NCBI GenBank assembly: GCA_016222905.1
Contig: JACRPZ010000025.1
Coordinates: forward strand, 1-34,197
Source: Nitrospirota bacterium
GTDB lineage: Bacteria; Nitrospirota; Thermodesulfovibrionia; UBA6902
Direction of reading: 5' to 3'
Length of the DNA stretch: 34,197 bases
Shown here piece by piece: positions 6,824 to 13,522 of the stretch. How positions within the stretch are numbered: position 1 is the first letter of the stretch; each line of letters begins with the position of its first letter. Position numbers and translations under genes: made by a program. The notes beneath the pieces were generated by a model, which was given only the letters and a program-made list of their open reading frames with translations, was not told where the DNA came from and did no database searches.

Positions 6824-8347
6824 TTAAGCGCCATTCTGCTTTTTTTGAAAATGTGTTACTTTTATTCTATTAAACTTGAAGGAGATCAAATCATTTGCCT
6901 CGAAATATTTGTATAGTTTGTTGATTAGTCCCGATTTATGATTCAACGAGTATTCCCTTGACTCTGTTTCTGTATAATTGTCGTTAATATAATTCAGCAC
7001 TTTTGGGGTTTCTGCATTATAGCCCCCGCGGGAAATTATCAGCCAGAATTGTTTCTCATCTATTTTTTTTACTTCCTGAAGAGAATCTACAGGGTAGATT
7101 CCTTTATTATAAGAACAGGTGTATAGATCGTTACTTTGAAAACATTCCTGATCGAAATAATATGAAAACGGCAGTATCTCATAAGAAGTAATAATTATAA
7201 CTTTATCCTCTTTTTGATTACTCGTTTGAATATATTCGGCGGCTTTATTCCAGGGATCTTTTGTTGTTTTATTCTGTTGTACAAGCAATGTTGCAATAGA
7301 TAAAATAATCATTGCTGAAATAAGTATCGGCCTGATTTCTGCTTTCATACTGAAGAGCGACCGGGAAGCTATTAAATATAAAGGCAAAGAAACAAAATAT
7401 GTGTACTTTGGGATAAAAATCGGAGTAAACAATAAAGAATAAGTGAAGGGGATTAAAATAGGTATCAATATCCAGAGGGGAAAAAGAATATTACTTCCTA
7501 ATTTATATCTCAGGACCAATAAAGAGCATATCAGCATTAATGCTAATCCATAAAATGAAAACACCGTTCCGGAAAAGAAAAAATATATCATATAAATTAA
7601 TTCCAGAAACGAAGGCTTTGCAATCCAGGAATGATAATTATCCAAGATTATACCCGGGAGTTGGATTATCCTTGGAATATAAAATATGAAAACAATAAAT
7701 TGTAATAAGACCCATGCCTTCACTTCCCTCGAAAGCTTAAACCTGTTTACAATAAATTGATGCAGGTTCTGCACTAAGAAAATTAGCAGGGCATACAAAT
7801 GTGCGTATATGAGAAAAACCGTGCTTATCAAATAGCCGGCAATAATCCATTTTGAAGTGACTTTGCTCAATTTAGAATAAAAATACATTGACAATAATGT
7901 CAGTGTAAATAAAATAGAATAAGTTCTTGCCTCCTGTGAGAAGTAAATATGCAATGGAGAACAAGCAACTAAAAGAGCAGAATATATTCCAACTTTCTTA
8001 TTGAAAATATGGGCGCCTAACAAATAGATAATAAAAACTGAAGCGGTCCCGAATAAAACAGAAAGCAACCTTACCGAAAACACTGAGGTTCCTGTGAACT
8101 TAATCCAGAAATGAAGTAAAACATAATAAAGCGGTGGGGAGAGGTCTTTAAAACTTATCGCATGTATAAAATTCTGCTGGCTGTGATATATGGAGTAAGC
8201 TTCGTCCAGCCATATACTCTGAGAGGACAACTTATATAATCTCAGAATAAACCCTGAAACAATTATAAGTCCTAAAAAAAAATAAGTGGATTTTTTTTTA
8301 TCGTTGGGGATTGGCGGAGCCGGCAAGCTTCTTCCTTTAAAAAAGGG
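6824..8347 (-). CDS. GT39-type membrane glycosyltransferase (ArnT/PMT-like)
   Basis: About 507-521 residues with many transmembrane helices. The first (about TYFFLGLIIVSGFILRLYKL) is followed by S-I-W-L-D-E-A-Y-S-I-Y, the W-x-D-E motif with the catalytic Asp of GT39/GT-C enzymes that use polyprenyl-phosphate sugars at the periplasmic face. Then comes A-I-S-F-K-D-L-S-P-P-L-Y-Y, also typical. The C-terminal third is soluble. The start is uncertain: ATG 8347 and TTG 8389 are both possible and neither has a strong ribosome binding site. By eye the gene is distinctly AT-richer than its neighbours, suggesting transfer. It follows mlaC by about 80 bp on the same strand. Likely role: sugar modification of lipid A, glycan or protein; substrate not inferable. 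Confidence 0.82.
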   Translation of the reverse strand, partial: PFFKGRSLPAPPIPNDKKKSTYFFLGLIIVSGFILRLYKLSSQSIWLDEAYSIYHSQQNFIHAISFKDLSPPLYYVLLHFWIKFTGTSVFSVRLLSVLFGTASVFIIYLLGAHIFNKKVGIYSALLVACSPLHIYFSQEARTYSILFTLTLLSMYFYSKLSKVTSKWIIAGYLISTVFLIYAHLYALLIFLVQNLHQFIVNRFKLSREVKAWVLLQFIVFIFYIPRIIQLPGIILDNYHSWIAKPSFLELIYMIYFFFSGTVFSFYGLALMLICSLLVLRYKLGSNILFPLWILIPILIPFTYSLLFTPIFIPKYTYFVSLPLYLIASRSLFSMKAEIRPILISAMIILSIATLLVQQNKTTKDPWNKAAEYIQTSNQKEDKVIIITSYEILPFSYYFDQECFQSNDLYTCSYNKGIYPVDSLQEVKKIDEKQFWLIISRGGYNAETPKVLNYINDNYTETESREYSLNHKSGLINKLYKYFEANDLISFKFNRIKVTHFQKKQNGA

Positions 8348-8426
8348 CATAATAGCCCCGGTGATTAAGGCGGTAGCGGAGAGATTCAATAATTTTATGT
8401 TCCATCAGCGGTTTTTTATAAACTGC

Positions 8427-9041
8427 TCATATCCTACCCACCTTTTTCCTCAGGGTTTCAAGTAATGACTCCGGCGGTTTGTTTGCGAGTATCTCGTTGA
8501 ATTGAGAGCGGTAGTTACTGATGAGGCTTACCCCTTCAATGACTACATCATAGACCCTCCACGAACCGTCCTTAATAATTAGCCTGTAGTAAATCGGGAT
8601 ATCTCCTGCCTTTCTCAGAACTTTGCTCTGTACCTCCACTGTCTTCTCTGTGAGTGCAACCTCTTTGCTGAAGTCTATCTTTTCATCGGTGTACACCATT
8701 ATCTTATCTGCATAGGCATCCTCGAGAAGAGACGTATATAGCTCGATAAACTCCTTCTGCTGTTCAGCAGCGAACTTGCCCCAGTTCTTGCCTAATGTCC
8801 TCTTTGAGAGTTCGGTGAAGTCAAACATCTTCTCGGAGATAGAACGGATCTTATCCTTCTTGGCTTTCTTGGCAGATTCGGCCTTGAGTGAAGGGTCGCG
8901 CAGTACATCCAGCACCTTATCGACGTGGCCTTTTACTGCTTCAAGAGGCGCGCCCGCAAAGACAGTGATGGGAAAGATCAAACACAGAATGAGTGTCATT
9001 ACAACAATGCAGTTTTTCACTATTTCCTCCTGTAGTTTCAT
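8427..9041 (-). CDS. mlaC: MlaC-type periplasmic phospholipid-binding protein
   Basis: 204 residues with a signal peptide ending around VFA-GAP. The body shows the Tol_Tol_Ttg2/MlaC family pattern: P-L-E-A-V-K-G-H-V-D-K-V, then K-I-R-S-I-S-E-K-M-F-D-F-T-E-L-S-K-R-T-L-G, W-G-K-F-A-A-E-Q-Q-K-E-F-I-E-L-Y, and a terminal Y-R-S-Q-F-N-E-I-L. MlaC ferries single phospholipids across the periplasm between the outer-membrane MlaA complex and the inner-membrane MlaFEDB transporter. Its start overlaps the mlaD stop by 4 bp (ATGA), and it is the last of the mlaE-F-D-C set. No mlaA or mlaB lies in the window. Confidence 0.9.
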   Translation of the reverse strand: MKLQEEIVKNCIVVMTLILCLIFPITVFAGAPLEAVKGHVDKVLDVLRDPSLKAESAKKAKKDKIRSISEKMFDFTELSKRTLGKNWGKFAAEQQKEFIELYTSLLEDAYADKIMVYTDEKIDFSKEVALTEKTVEVQSKVLRKAGDIPIYYRLIIKDGSWRVYDVVIEGVSLISNYRSQFNEILANKPPESLLETLRKKVGRI

Positions 9042-9514
9042 TCGCTCTCCTCCTTATTATCGTCCTTTTTAATATCTCCAAACGCGTATTTACTGATCAG
9101 GTCCTCTAAATCAAGTGGAGAGGTGGTCTCGGTGATCGTCCCCCACGGCCTCAGGATATCACCGCCCCCCCCGGGATCGATCTTGACGAACTTATCGCCT
9201 ATGAGACCGGCAGTCCTGATTGATGCTCCGGCGTCATCGTAAACCTTAATGCCTTTTCTGATCTTTAATTCGATCACGGCCATCTGTTTTTCCTGGTTTA
9301 TGCTCATTTGCTCCACCCGTCCGACCTCAATGCCGTCAATCTCAACGGGGTTGCCGACCCGCAATCCCGATACTGAACCGAAGTGCGCATACAGTGAATA
9401 GTAATCGTCTCCGAACAGGGAGACCTTGCCAAGCTTAACGGTCATGTATGCCACACCTATAAGGCCTATGAGCACAAAAATGCCGACAACTGTTTCAATC
9501 GAGTACTTTTTCAT
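9038..9514 (-). CDS. mlaD: MlaD-type MCE-domain protein
   Basis: 158 residues from ATG 9514 (AGGAGGGTGGTTTGAA upstream), which overlaps the mlaF stop by 4 bp. One N-terminal transmembrane helix (about 6-24) is followed by one MCE domain with the family phrases G-L-R-V-G-N-P-V-E-I-D-G-I-E-V-G-R-V, A-S-I-R-T-A-G-L-I-G-D-K-F-V-K-I and a Pro/Gly turn. MCE domains form a hexameric ring with a hydrophobic pore that carries phospholipid between MlaE and MlaC. Length fits short proteobacterial MlaD. The acidic C-terminus (DDNKEESE) is unremarkable. Confidence 0.92.
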   Translation of the reverse strand: MKKYSIETVVGIFVLIGLIGVAYMTVKLGKVSLFGDDYYSLYAHFGSVSGLRVGNPVEIDGIEVGRVEQMSINQEKQMAVIELKIRKGIKVYDDAGASIRTAGLIGDKFVKIDPGGGGDILRPWGTITETTSPLDLEDLISKYAFGDIKKDDNKEESE

Positions 9515-10761
9515 TTCAAACCACCCTCCTTGCCGCACTGATATCGTGCGATCTTCTCCTGCTTTGCCTCAGCTTTTTTCATGATCTGTTCAATGTCATC
9601 AGCGGAGCTGCTTTCAGTTACGCCAGCGTACACAAATATTTCGAAGCATCCATCGGCTGCTATCTTACCCTTGGCAAGGGACTCGATCTCAGGCAAGGCC
9701 GTTTGCTGAAGCTCCCGAGCAATATCATGGACTAATTGCCATCCTTCTTCAATGCCTATATGAGGCAGAATGGTAAGTATCTTGTCCTTGCTGTGACGCG
9801 CCGAGAAACCTCCCAAAGGACTGAAATATTTATTTACGTGCTCTCCAACTGCCTTGAGGACCTCTATAGCGGACTGAGGACCGAGCACATTAGAGATAAA
9901 GTCAAAGTTGAGGCTGAAAAGCACGGCTGTAATTGTGGTGTCAACCCGTCCGCCGCTCAGTGTCAGGGCATACCGGGACCTGAACATCTCTTTGGAGAGG
10001 AGGCCGGTGAGCTCGTCCCGAAGACCCTCAATGCTCTTGACGAATTCATCTATCATTGGATGTTTAAGCCTTGTCATCTCATCATAGTTACCGCTAAAAC
10101 CGATCTTCCCTTCCCACAGAAGCAGTATGCGGTCAGAGATAAAGAAGACATCCGGGATATCATGACTGATGAGAATAGCGGTAAATCCAAACTGTTTTCT
10201 GTAATGCGCTATCATGCTCAGGATTACGTTTCTCCTTACAGGGTCCTGGCTGGTTGTTGGCTCGTCAAAGAGCACGATAGCCGGGTCTGTTACAAGGGCC
10301 CGGGCCAGGGCCACACGTTTCTGCATACCGCCTGAGAGCTCTGCCGGGTACTTTCCAACAGCATCCGTGAGTTCCATCTGCTCAATCCTCGACATTGCCT
10401 TTGAGTTGACCTCCTTTTTTCTCAGGTTCGTTGTCTGTCTGAGCGGGAGGGCTATGTTTTCAAGGACGGTCATGGAATCAAAAAGGGCATTGTTCTGGAA
10501 CATATAGCTGATCTTGCTCCTGTATCCTTCCCATTCCTTTTTCTTCATATCATGGACCGGCTTCCCTCTGAAGAATATGCTCCCTTCGTCAGGGGTAAGG
10601 AGGCCGATTATATGCTTGAGAAGAACGCTCTTGCCGCTGCCGCTCTTCCCGATTATCGTCGTGATCTGGTTCTCATAAATCGAGAGGTTTGCCTTGTCGA
10701 GAATGGTCTTTTCGTCAAAGCGCTTGGTGACCTCTCTGAATTCTATCAATGGCGTTTCCAT
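9511..10761 (-). CDS. mlaF: MlaF ATPase fused to a C-terminal degenerate GGDEF-like domain
   Basis: 416 residues against about 250-270 for usual MlaF. Residues 1-245 are a complete ABC ATPase: Walker A GKSGSGKS (38-45), Q-loop near FQNN (88-91), signature LSGGM (142-146), Walker B IVLFDEP (162-168), H-loop His200. Residues about 246-405 are extra. They start D-E-L-T-G-L-L (the D-x-L-T-G-L opening of GGDEF domains), continue with a strand plus F-D-F-I-S-N-V-L-G, and contain R-H-S-K-D-K-I-L-T-I-L-P at 322-333, which aligns residue for residue with R-x-G-G-D-E-F-x-x-x-L-P. The signature is SKDKI rather than GGDEF, so cyclase activity is improbable. It energises phospholipid transport with MlaE/MlaD. 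The fusion suggests nucleotide or protein sensing; that is inference. Confidence 0.88.
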   Translation of the reverse strand: METPLIEFREVTKRFDEKTILDKANLSIYENQITTIIGKSGSGKSVLLKHIIGLLTPDEGSIFFRGKPVHDMKKKEWEGYRSKISYMFQNNALFDSMTVLENIALPLRQTTNLRKKEVNSKAMSRIEQMELTDAVGKYPAELSGGMQKRVALARALVTDPAIVLFDEPTTSQDPVRRNVILSMIAHYRKQFGFTAILISHDIPDVFFISDRILLLWEGKIGFSGNYDEMTRLKHPMIDEFVKSIEGLRDELTGLLSKEMFRSRYALTLSGGRVDTTITAVLFSLNFDFISNVLGPQSAIEVLKAVGEHVNKYFSPLGGFSARHSKDKILTILPHIGIEEGWQLVHDIARELQQTALPEIESLAKGKIAADGCFEIFVYAGVTESSSADDIEQIMKKAEAKQEKIARYQCGKEGGLK

Positions 10762-10769
10762 AGATGCCC

Positions 10770-11579
10770 CTACATGAGAAAAGATGTTACAACATAGTCT
10801 GAGATTAGTATAGTTACACAGGAGAATACGACTGCCGAGGTGGTCGAGAGGCTGACGCTCTTTGCGCCGTAGCTGTCGGTACGGAGGTGCGTGAAGTATC
10901 CCTGATAACAGCAGATTGTGGAGACTAATACAGCGAAGACGAGTGATTTTATGAACCCGCCCCTTATGTCTACCATCTCCACATATGAATGGATACGATA
11001 AAAGTAGGCGCCTTTATCCACCCCGAGGAGGACCACGCCGGTAAGATATCCTCCGAGTATCCCGATGAGATCAAAGAAGGCCGTCAGCAATGGAAAACTG
11101 ATGATCGAGGCGGCGATACACGGGCTGATGAGATACCGCTGTGGGTCAATGCGCATGGTATAGAGAGCGTCTATCTGTTCGGAGATGCGGAGGTTACCGA
11201 TCTCCGCGGTCATTGCAGAGCCTGCCCTTGCGGTTATCATGATCGCGGTAAGCACCGGCCCCAGTTCCCTGATGAGCGTGAGGGCCACGACTGAACCGAG
11301 TACCCCCTCGGACCCGAATTTATTCAGGGTATAGAAAAGCTGAAGGCCCAGGACCATGCCTGTGAAGAGGCCGACGAGTATCACGATATTCGCTGACTTG
11401 GCTCCGATATAAAAAACCTGCTGAACAATCTCCCTGATCTGTTTGGGCCGAAATATCTTCAGAAATGAAACGGCAAAGAATACGGTTACGGCGCCAAGGT
11501 TGTTGATGATCTTCATCGTCCTTTTTCCGAGGAAATTAATGAAGAGCCAGAAGTAACTGTGTTTTATTGTGGATTCCAT
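10770..11579 (-). CDS. mlaE: MlaE-type phospholipid transport permease
   Basis: About 269 residues from ATG 11579 (a TTG at 11585 is also in frame). Multi-spanning permease with the MlaE signatures V-L-V-G-L-F-T-G-M-V-L-G-L-Q, A-L-T-L-I-R-E-L-G-P-V-L-T-A-I-M, and R-A-G-S-A-M-T-A-E-I-G-N-L-R-I-S-E-Q-I-D-A-L. MlaE is the membrane subunit of the MlaFEDB complex that moves phospholipid between the inner membrane and periplasmic carriers. It is the first gene of the operon, 8 bp before mlaF, with a strong sigma-70-type promoter upstream (11619-11647). The N-terminal amphipathic segment (FWLFINFLGKRTMKIINNLG) is normal for the family. Confidence 0.92.
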   Translation of the reverse strand: MESTIKHSYFWLFINFLGKRTMKIINNLGAVTVFFAVSFLKIFRPKQIREIVQQVFYIGAKSANIVILVGLFTGMVLGLQLFYTLNKFGSEGVLGSVVALTLIRELGPVLTAIMITARAGSAMTAEIGNLRISEQIDALYTMRIDPQRYLISPCIAASIISFPLLTAFFDLIGILGGYLTGVVLLGVDKGAYFYRIHSYVEMVDIRGGFIKSLVFAVLVSTICCYQGYFTHLRTDSYGAKSVSLSTTSAVVFSCVTILISDYVVTSFLM

Positions 11580-11618
11580 ATGCAATGTTGATAATTGTAA
11601 CTACAGCTATGTGATACC

Positions 11619-11774: not shown

Positions 11775-11843
11775 ATGAAAAAAAACTTCATTTTAGTAAA
11801 AGGGCCCGCGGCACTCTGTGCCATGAGTAATCTGCACGCATGA
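11775..11843 (+). CDS. Possible 22-codon leader ORF translationally coupled to the asmA-like gene
   Basis: ATG 11775 opens a short frame (MKKNFILVKG then PAALCAMSNLHA) whose TGA overlaps the ATG of the asmA-like gene in an ATGA arrangement (11840-11843). The asmA-like start has no ribosome binding site of its own, so re-initiation after this leader would explain its translation. The leader's own Shine-Dalgarno is weak (GAGGCGAAAAG further upstream). There is no recognised family. It could be a chance frame. Confidence 0.35.
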   Translation: MKKNFILVKGPAALCAMSNLHA

Positions 11844-13522
11844 ATGACAAGATGAAAAAAGTCCTTCTTGTCCTTGGAAGCGGCGCGGCAGCACTTGTTC
11901 TTGCCGCTGTAATTTTCATCCTCACCTTCGACATAAATTCCTACAGGCCCCGCATCGAGGCCGCCGTTTCCGGGGCGACCGGAATGGATGTCAGGATCAA
12001 TGGGAAGATGGGGATTTCTTTCTTTCCCTTTAGCATATCGGCTGAGGATATCCACGTCTCCAACAGGGGAGACAAGATCATATCCCTCGAAAACCTAAAG
12101 CTGAGGGCAGAGTTAATGTCCCTGCTGAAAAAGCAGCTCAAAGTCACCAGTTACGAGCTTGTCAAACCTGCTTTCACTATCGTGAAGGAGACTGATGGGA
12201 AATATAATTTTGAAAACGCTGAAAAAAAATCCACCAAAGGAAAAACCGGAGCAGCTTTCAGTTTGAATGAGCTCAAGCTATCCAAAGGGTCACTTGTCTA
12301 TCTCGACAAGAAGACAGGGGAAAAGACGGAATTTAAAGATTTCGATCTTGATGTCAAAGACCTCTCTATAGCAGGGGATGTCATAAAGAACGCCTCGTTC
12401 ACTGGAAGCTTCGACTGCAAGGAGGTACTGCAAAAGAACTTAAGGATAGAGAATCTCAAGTCTTCCATAAGGGCGGTCAGGGGGATATATAATTTCGAAC
12501 CTCTTGCCATCGGGTCCTTTGTCTACTTTGACAAGAAGGCCGGTGAAAAAACCGAGTTAAAGGAAATCAATCTGGCTGTCAAGGATCTTTCAGTAGGGGA
12601 CACCTCAGGGGTTACCATAAAGAATATTGCATTCACGGGAAACCTGGACTGCAAGGAGGTAAGAAAAAAGGGCCTTAATATCGACAACGTCAAGAGTCTT
12701 ATGAAAGCGGAGAAGGGAGTGATATACCTCACATCCCTTAACATGGATATCTTCGGCGGGAAGGCTGAAGGAGATATTACAGCAGACAAGTCTGGAGCGG
12801 ATGCCGCATATAAAATCAATTTAAAGGTATCGAAGCTGGACTTCGAAAAATTGCAGGAGTTCTTCGGCACAAAAAACGTTATCGGCGGCAAGGGGGATCT
12901 TTATGCTTCACTGACAATGAAAGAAAAAGAAGATCGTGATATGATGAGCGGCATGGACGGTACTTTTTCTCTGCAGGGTGATAATCTCGTCATTTATAAT
13001 ATGGACCTCGACACGCTCCTCACAAAATATGAAACGAGCCAGAAGGTGAACCTCGTCGACCTCGGCGCTTTCTTCATCGCCGGCCCTATCGGCACCGCTG
13101 CTATGATAGGCACCGTTGCTCTCAAGGGGTACCGTTATGGAGACGTTTATTCCCAGCAGTCCCGGGGAGGGCAAGGTACCATCACACAGTTCATCTCCCA
13201 CTGGAATATCAGGGACGGTGTGGCGGACGCTGCGGACTGCGCCCTTGCGACACGACATAATCGGGTTGCCCTTAAAGGCAAGCTCAATCTTGTCAGCGAA
13301 CGATATGATAATGTGATAGTGGCGCTTCTTGATGACAAGGGATGCGCAAAATTAAAACAGAGCATCAGAGGTCCTTTCGGCAGTCCAGATGTAGGCGCGG
13401 TGAGCGCGGTCGAGTCCTTTGCCGGCCCAATCTTCAATATTTTCAGGAAGACAAAGCGCTTTGTTCAGGGCAGCAGATGCGAGGTCTTTTATAACGGCTC
13501 TGTGCAGCAACCTTCAAAATGA
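11840..13522 (+). CDS. AsmA-family protein with an internal duplication
   Basis: 560 residues. One N-terminal transmembrane helix (about 7-30, ending in TFDINSYRPRIE) is followed by A-A-V-S-G-A-T-G-M-D-V-R-I-N-G-K and S-F-F-P-F-S-I-S-A-E-D-I, the classic AsmA opening. The C-terminal half (MSGMDGTFSLQGDNLVIYNMDLD, later V-A-L-K-G-K-L-N-L) matches AsmA C-terminal domains. AsmA-like proteins are inner-membrane-anchored beta-groove proteins thought to move or control phospholipids on the way to the outer membrane. Residues about 150-216 and 225-295 are a duplicated unit (G-S-L/F-V-Y-L/F-D-K-K-x-G-E-K-T-E, ending in x-F-T-G-x-x-D-C-K-E-V). It is divergent from mlaE, so lipid transport in both directions may be encoded here. 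Start at 11840 or 11852. Confidence 0.85.
   Translation: MNDKMKKVLLVLGSGAAALVLAAVIFILTFDINSYRPRIEAAVSGATGMDVRINGKMGISFFPFSISAEDIHVSNRGDKIISLENLKLRAELMSLLKKQLKVTSYELVKPAFTIVKETDGKYNFENAEKKSTKGKTGAAFSLNELKLSKGSLVYLDKKTGEKTEFKDFDLDVKDLSIAGDVIKNASFTGSFDCKEVLQKNLRIENLKSSIRAVRGIYNFEPLAIGSFVYFDKKAGEKTELKEINLAVKDLSVGDTSGVTIKNIAFTGNLDCKEVRKKGLNIDNVKSLMKAEKGVIYLTSLNMDIFGGKAEGDITADKSGADAAYKINLKVSKLDFEKLQEFFGTKNVIGGKGDLYASLTMKEKEDRDMMSGMDGTFSLQGDNLVIYNMDLDTLLTKYETSQKVNLVDLGAFFIAGPIGTAAMIGTVALKGYRYGDVYSQQSRGGQGTITQFISHWNIRDGVADAADCALATRHNRVALKGKLNLVSERYDNVIVALLDDKGCAKLKQSIRGPFGSPDVGAVSAVESFAGPIFNIFRKTKRFVQGSRCEVFYNGSVQQPSK

Follow-up and report, generated by a model that had tools for sequence, protein, structure and literature searches.

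A degenerate GGDEF domain fused to an MlaF-type ATPase, probably retained as a non-enzymatic regulatory or dimerization module

The window, a stretch of 34,197 nucleotides from contig JACRPZ010000025.1 of a Nitrospirota bacterium, contains an mla operon on the minus strand. The permease gene mlaE (10770..11585; PF02405 245 bits, TIGR00056 over its cut-off) lies upstream of mlaF (9511-10761), which is followed by mlaD (9038..9514; TIGR04430 138.6 bits against a cut-off of 135) and by mlaC (8427..9041; PF05494 159 bits), encoding the periplasmic lipid carrier. In the window sequence, the stop codon of mlaF and the start codon of mlaD overlap as ATGA (9511-9514). The mlaF reading frame has an ATG start and encodes 416 residues, an ABC ATPase followed by additional C-terminal residues 247–416. 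With mlaE, mlaD and mlaC linked to this fused mlaF, the locus encodes an Mla system.

The MlaC protein is scored higher by the hopanoid-associated HpnM model than by the E. coli MlaC model, with both scores below the cut-off. In the position after mlaC, which is occupied by mlaA in most relatives, a gene for a PMT_2-type glycosyltransferase is found (6824-8389, minus strand). The sole MlaA of this genome is encoded at another locus (C59), beside a different, tail-less Mla operon. On the opposite side a divergent gene of the AsmA/YhdP family (11840-13522, plus strand), which belongs to a lipid-transport class, adjoins the mla operon. This family is also encoded near the fused operon at two further loci (L092 and L099).

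Residues 1–246 (10024..10761, minus strand) form an MlaF-type ABC ATPase domain (PF00005, 127 bits). All ABC motifs are intact: Walker A (GKSGSGKS), the signature (LSGGMQKR), Walker B (IVLFDEP), the MlaF-type QDP D-loop and the H-loop with His200. The best named NCBIfam match is MlaF PRK11831 (187.5 bits); the cut-off of the MlaF equivalog model NF008809 (441 bits) is not reached by this score, the model being centered on E. coli. In a search of PDB sequences with the ABC domain, solved MlaF chains rank top. Judged by these motifs and by the similarity to solved MlaF, the ATPase is a member of the MlaF subfamily. None of the four further MlaF-like ATPases encoded in the genome has the C-terminal tail, in agreement with the first-pass annotation, which had described about 170 residues as absent from normal MlaF.

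The tail (residues 247–416, 170 residues; 9514..10023, minus strand) is recognized as a GGDEF domain by PF00990, with 27.6 bits for the whole protein and 30 bits (E 5e-7) for the tail alone, both above the gathering score of 23.8. It is the weakest among 14 matches in a genome-wide GGDEF search. PF00990 also matches 42 of 44 homologous tails (best E 4e-14), and fused members of other branches reach E-values down to 6e-21 and scores of up to 75 bits. When the tail is aligned with seven true GGDEF domains encoded in this genome, the opening motif DELTGL (residues 249–254; 10000..10017, minus strand) shares its column with DxLTGL and corresponds to the DxLT wide-turn motif at the start of the domain. 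The former RxGGDEFxxxLP hairpin (residues 322–333; 9763..9798, minus strand) now reads RHSKDKILTILP and occupies exactly the columns of R-x-G-G-[DE]-E-F-x-x-x-L-P. Both correspondences had been read from the single sequence and hold in this alignment.

An AF2 model of the tail was calculated from 44 natural sequences (pLDDT 82.3, pTM 0.81). It has the GGDEF fold, rather than another fold or disorder, and the order of strands and helices is the one previously proposed. All 50 PDB matches listed by Foldseek/VIA for this model are GGDEF-domain entries. VIA aligns it with DgcB (Z 15.5, rmsd 4.7, 159 residues) and SadC (Z 15.0, rmsd 2.7, 148 residues); SadC is also matched by Foldseek (E 3e-7). A profile search of PDB sequences with the tail gave one weak match, the diguanylate cyclase 5m3c (E 0.006). 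The model of the full-length fused protein, with a pTM of only 0.48, gives hardly any information on where the tail sits with respect to the ABC domain. The profile matches, the alignment and the predicted fold together identify the tail as a GGDEF domain that is catalytically dead.

Both metal aspartates, the guanine-binding Asn and Asp, the GGDEF letters and the I-site arginine are gone from the tail of the window protein. The same largely holds for the family. The metal- and guanine-binding columns 283, 290 and 299 are substituted in the fused tails; Ser, Thr, Asn, Gly and others stand in the metal-aspartate columns, and FKxxND and GH..GD are for the most part substituted as well. The C-terminal phosphate-binding lysine is mostly Cys. 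The I-site (RxxD) normally precedes GGDEF by five residues; its arginine column holds Pro, Ala or Ser in nearly all fused members. The metal aspartates, FK..ND, GH..GD, the I-site arginine and the GGDEF letters show little or no variation among the canonical GGDEF domains encoded in this genome. An intact GG[DE]EF signature is found in none of the 93 aligned fused proteins. The window protein has SKDKI at this site, as pointed out in the first-pass annotation; this is a local variant, and the form found throughout the family is [SG]-R-[DN]-[EQK]-I. The previous conclusion that the domain is non-catalytic is borne out by these losses.

Other positions are retained. Arg322, two residues before the former GGDEF, is invariant in all 93 fused proteins and Gly253 in all 66 clusters formed at 80% identity. 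The DxLT turn is kept, with Asp in 71 of 93 proteins and LTG in nearly all, and so are positions of the core. The spacing from Phe240 in the last ABC helix to Asp249 of the DxLTG turn is nine residues, free of insertions and deletions, in 93 of 93 proteins. In some relatives the hairpin is far more similar to GGDEF than in the window protein; it reads RFGADEF in one member (L191) and RFGPEEI in another (L180). The persistence of these two sequences supports the descent of the tail from a true GGDEF domain. The family clearly illustrates how a GGDEF domain can be retained for structure once its chemistry is lost. An active diguanylate cyclase attached to a transporter would be in keeping only with the fold and with the RFGADEF-like hairpin of L191. 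This explanation is hardly conceivable, however, because the first metal-binding aspartate is absent in the counted fused proteins and the GGDEF signature is never intact.

Alternatively, the remodeled GGDEF pocket could bind a nucleotide or another metabolite and signal to the ATPase. The model for such a sensor is the ACT-like C2 domain of MetN, which passes a methionine signal to its ATPase (PMC7367683). The sensor explanation can point to a conserved block around the former active-site hairpin (GGFSARxSRDxILTILP) with the invariant Arg322, and to the discussion of degenerate GGDEF domains as regulatory or effector modules in the literature. On the other hand, the known residues for binding guanine, metal, phosphate and c-di-GMP are replaced in the tails, and the positions conserved throughout the family are mostly structural (the DxLTG turn, Arg322 and the Ala-Gly of a core strand). 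A metabolite sensor is unlikely. The first-pass annotation had considered nucleotide binding and a tie to cyclic-di-GMP signaling; neither is supported, since the guanine-, metal- and phosphate-binding residues and the I-site are gone. It is similarly doubtful that the tail is a repurposed signaling module in which a messenger, bound in a rebuilt pocket, gates phospholipid transport. If so, outer-membrane lipid trafficking in two phyla would be under direct control of a second-messenger type.

A search for further fused MlaF proteins revealed a family in two phyla, wider than first thought. A scan of contigs with the single tail sequence found nothing, and a scan with an alignment of tails detected fused genes. 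Within the family and class of the window's genome, fused proteins score about 650–885 bits versus less than 290 bits for tail-less MlaF. In a scan of named genomes, fused genes occur in Nitrospirota and in metagenome-assembled genomes (MAGs) of Thermodesulfobacteriota (the former Deltaproteobacteria), with taxon names taken from the records. In a sample of 395 genomes from the phylum of one such genome (G421), about 55 contain all or most of a fused gene. No fused form was found among 398 genomes from the phylum of a gammaproteobacterial genome, a set without a positive control, and the scan of viral contigs gave no relative. About 90 fused homologues were read, and the thinned set used for alignment comprises 93 fused proteins. 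A MAG chimera or a fusion private to the window's genome is ruled out because the identical junction is present in many independent assemblies, one of them a single contig (CP070632.1).

When the ABC domains are placed in a maximum-likelihood tree, the fused proteins lie in a single clade (77 rows, SH-aLRT 97); five tail-less rows branch at the base of this clade or within it. Gain and loss of the tail require three state changes on this tree versus 22 expected with shuffled labels. On the simplest reading, the tail would have been gained once and lost once or twice; some inner branches are weak. Members from Nitrospirota and Thermodesulfobacteriota are intermixed in the clade, which suggests horizontal transfer. 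Two genomes (G421 and G560; L164 and L181 with L152) encode two fused MlaF paralogues each, located on different branches of the clade.

For the least saturated pairs, dN/dS is about 0.08–0.26 for the tail and 0.04–0.10 for the ABC domain, so that the tail has one to four times the value of the ABC domain; larger values belong to saturated pairs. The tail is under purifying selection, and the fusion is old and maintained across two phyla. A decaying leftover without a role might be suspected from the absence of the tail in some genomes within the clade and from two MAG copies that are broken inside it. However, dN/dS is low in every comparable pair, residues are invariant, the junction is fixed and the family spans two phyla. 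Moreover, the breaks occur in draft MAGs and could stem from misassembly. A mere vestige is very improbable. The disrupted genes (L072/L073 in G360 and L127 in G020:C112) carry a deletion or frameshift within the tail and may represent either real loss or assembly errors.

The gene order mlaE - mlaF(GGDEF) - mlaD - mlaC (- mlaA) is conserved. Among 89 fused loci, MlaE is encoded upstream in 85, and MlaD and MlaC are present in 85 and 78, respectively; MlaA follows mlaC in 47 of the 68 loci with sufficient room. Of the STAS/MlaB matches listed for about 70 fused genomes, not one is encoded within 15 kb of a fused operon. With MlaE, D, C and A conserved in the operon, the Mla-type system is thus complete except for MlaB. 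The proposal that the tail merely stands in for MlaB is weakened, since STAS genes are also lacking in tail-less MlaF genomes of the same class and in the genomes of the tail-less members L185 and L189 of the fused clade. MlaB is sparse across bacteria generally (PMC10665443).

The tail might also act as a docking site for a second protein, be it a c-di-GMP enzyme, an envelope protein or a polar landmark, and in this way place or switch the transporter. A precedent is the inactive GGDEF domain of Shewanella PdeB, which binds the landmark HubP and activates its own phosphodiesterase (PMC9061725). Yet the few gene tables contain no conserved extra gene beside the fused operons beyond MlaE, D, C and A, and such a docking function is quite improbable.

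We consider it probable, with some reserve, that a diguanylate-cyclase (GGDEF) domain joined the C-terminus of the MlaF of an MlaE-F-D-C transporter in a single ancient event and that, once the residues for catalysis and c-di-GMP binding had disappeared, it was retained as a non-enzymatic C-terminal regulatory or dimerization module. The final ABC helix leads directly, with no linker, into the DxLT turn of the GGDEF domain, and the two tails of an MlaF dimer would accordingly sit under the ABC domains. Paired in this position, they would hold the ABC domains together and influence their closing. The tail would occupy the site of the dimerizing C-terminal extension of E. coli MlaF (residues 247–269). 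This extension starts at the same residue number (247) and forms a domain-swapped handshake; E. coli MlaF without it is non-functional, and a fused GCN4 dimerization domain (zipper) largely restores function (PMC7367683).

By analogy, the tail would mediate dimerization, and it may control the ATPase activity. A folded domain on both subunits of the ABC dimer would most simply serve dimer stability and conformational control. In active cyclases the DxLT turn joins the signaling helix to the catalytic domain, and the register of the helix carries the signal (PMC8041772, PMC10396304); the fixed junction would fit a rigid coupling of ATPase and tail. That the tail tunes phospholipid transport, as had been proposed from the sequence of the gene, is plausible. 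It counts against the retained module that the tail is dispensable in L185, L189 and L186-188, because these lie beside or within the fused clade without it.

The fused protein shares a full ABC domain, MlaF-type motifs and an operon with MlaE, MlaD and MlaC with E. coli MlaF and its relatives (PDB entries 6xbd, 7cgn and 7d06). In contrast to the extension of about 25 residues and the MlaB partner of E. coli MlaF (PMC7367683), it has a folded domain of 170 residues. The tail resembles GGDEF domains of the group III nucleotidyl cyclase fold (SadC 4wxo, DgcB 6ttr, PleD 2wb4) in fold, DxLT turn, hairpin position and the arginine of RxGGDEF. Unlike these, it lacks catalytic, substrate and I-site residues and has an ABC ATPase rather than a sensor as its fusion partner. 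The C-terminal regulatory domains of the ABC importers MetN (C2) and MalK likewise are folded domains after an ABC domain, expected below the ABC dimer (PMC7367683), but belong to a domain family unrelated to the GGDEF tail. Reuse of the GGDEF fold without cyclase activity is found in Shewanella PdeB (PMC9061725). Both PdeB and BcsE work within c-di-GMP enzymes or effectors, whereas the fused tail is located on a lipid-transport ATPase. Effectors of the BcsE type reportedly use non-catalytic GGDEF domains as switches.

Regulatory domains of ABC ATPases and dead GGDEF domains are known already; the combination on MlaF, at this age and with so wide a distribution, was not found in the open literature. 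A survey covering the Mla systems of 1083 genomes does not mention GGDEF. Regulation of Mla in E. coli involves MlaB and a short tail, and most bacteria are without MlaB. With a reused cyclase fold as part of the ATPase, Nitrospirota and lineages of sulfate reducers and syntrophs would have an ancient alternative. The tail is a defined, deletable domain for testing the regulation of lipid transport. Because the Pfam threshold is passed, annotation pipelines may miscount fused genes as c-di-GMP enzymes.

The STAS/MlaB and STAS-MlaE systems of the same genome (C68 and C10) also have an accessory cytoplasmic domain on an MlaE-F transporter, but this domain is STAS rather than GGDEF and is carried by a different subunit. 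Altogether five MlaE/F systems with differing accessory arrangements are encoded in the window's genome (G000: C6, C68, C10, C59 and C87; L140-L143). These arrangements comprise the fused dead GGDEF domain, a separate STAS protein, a STAS-MlaE fusion, a tail-less form beside MlaA and a tail-less form with a long MlaD.
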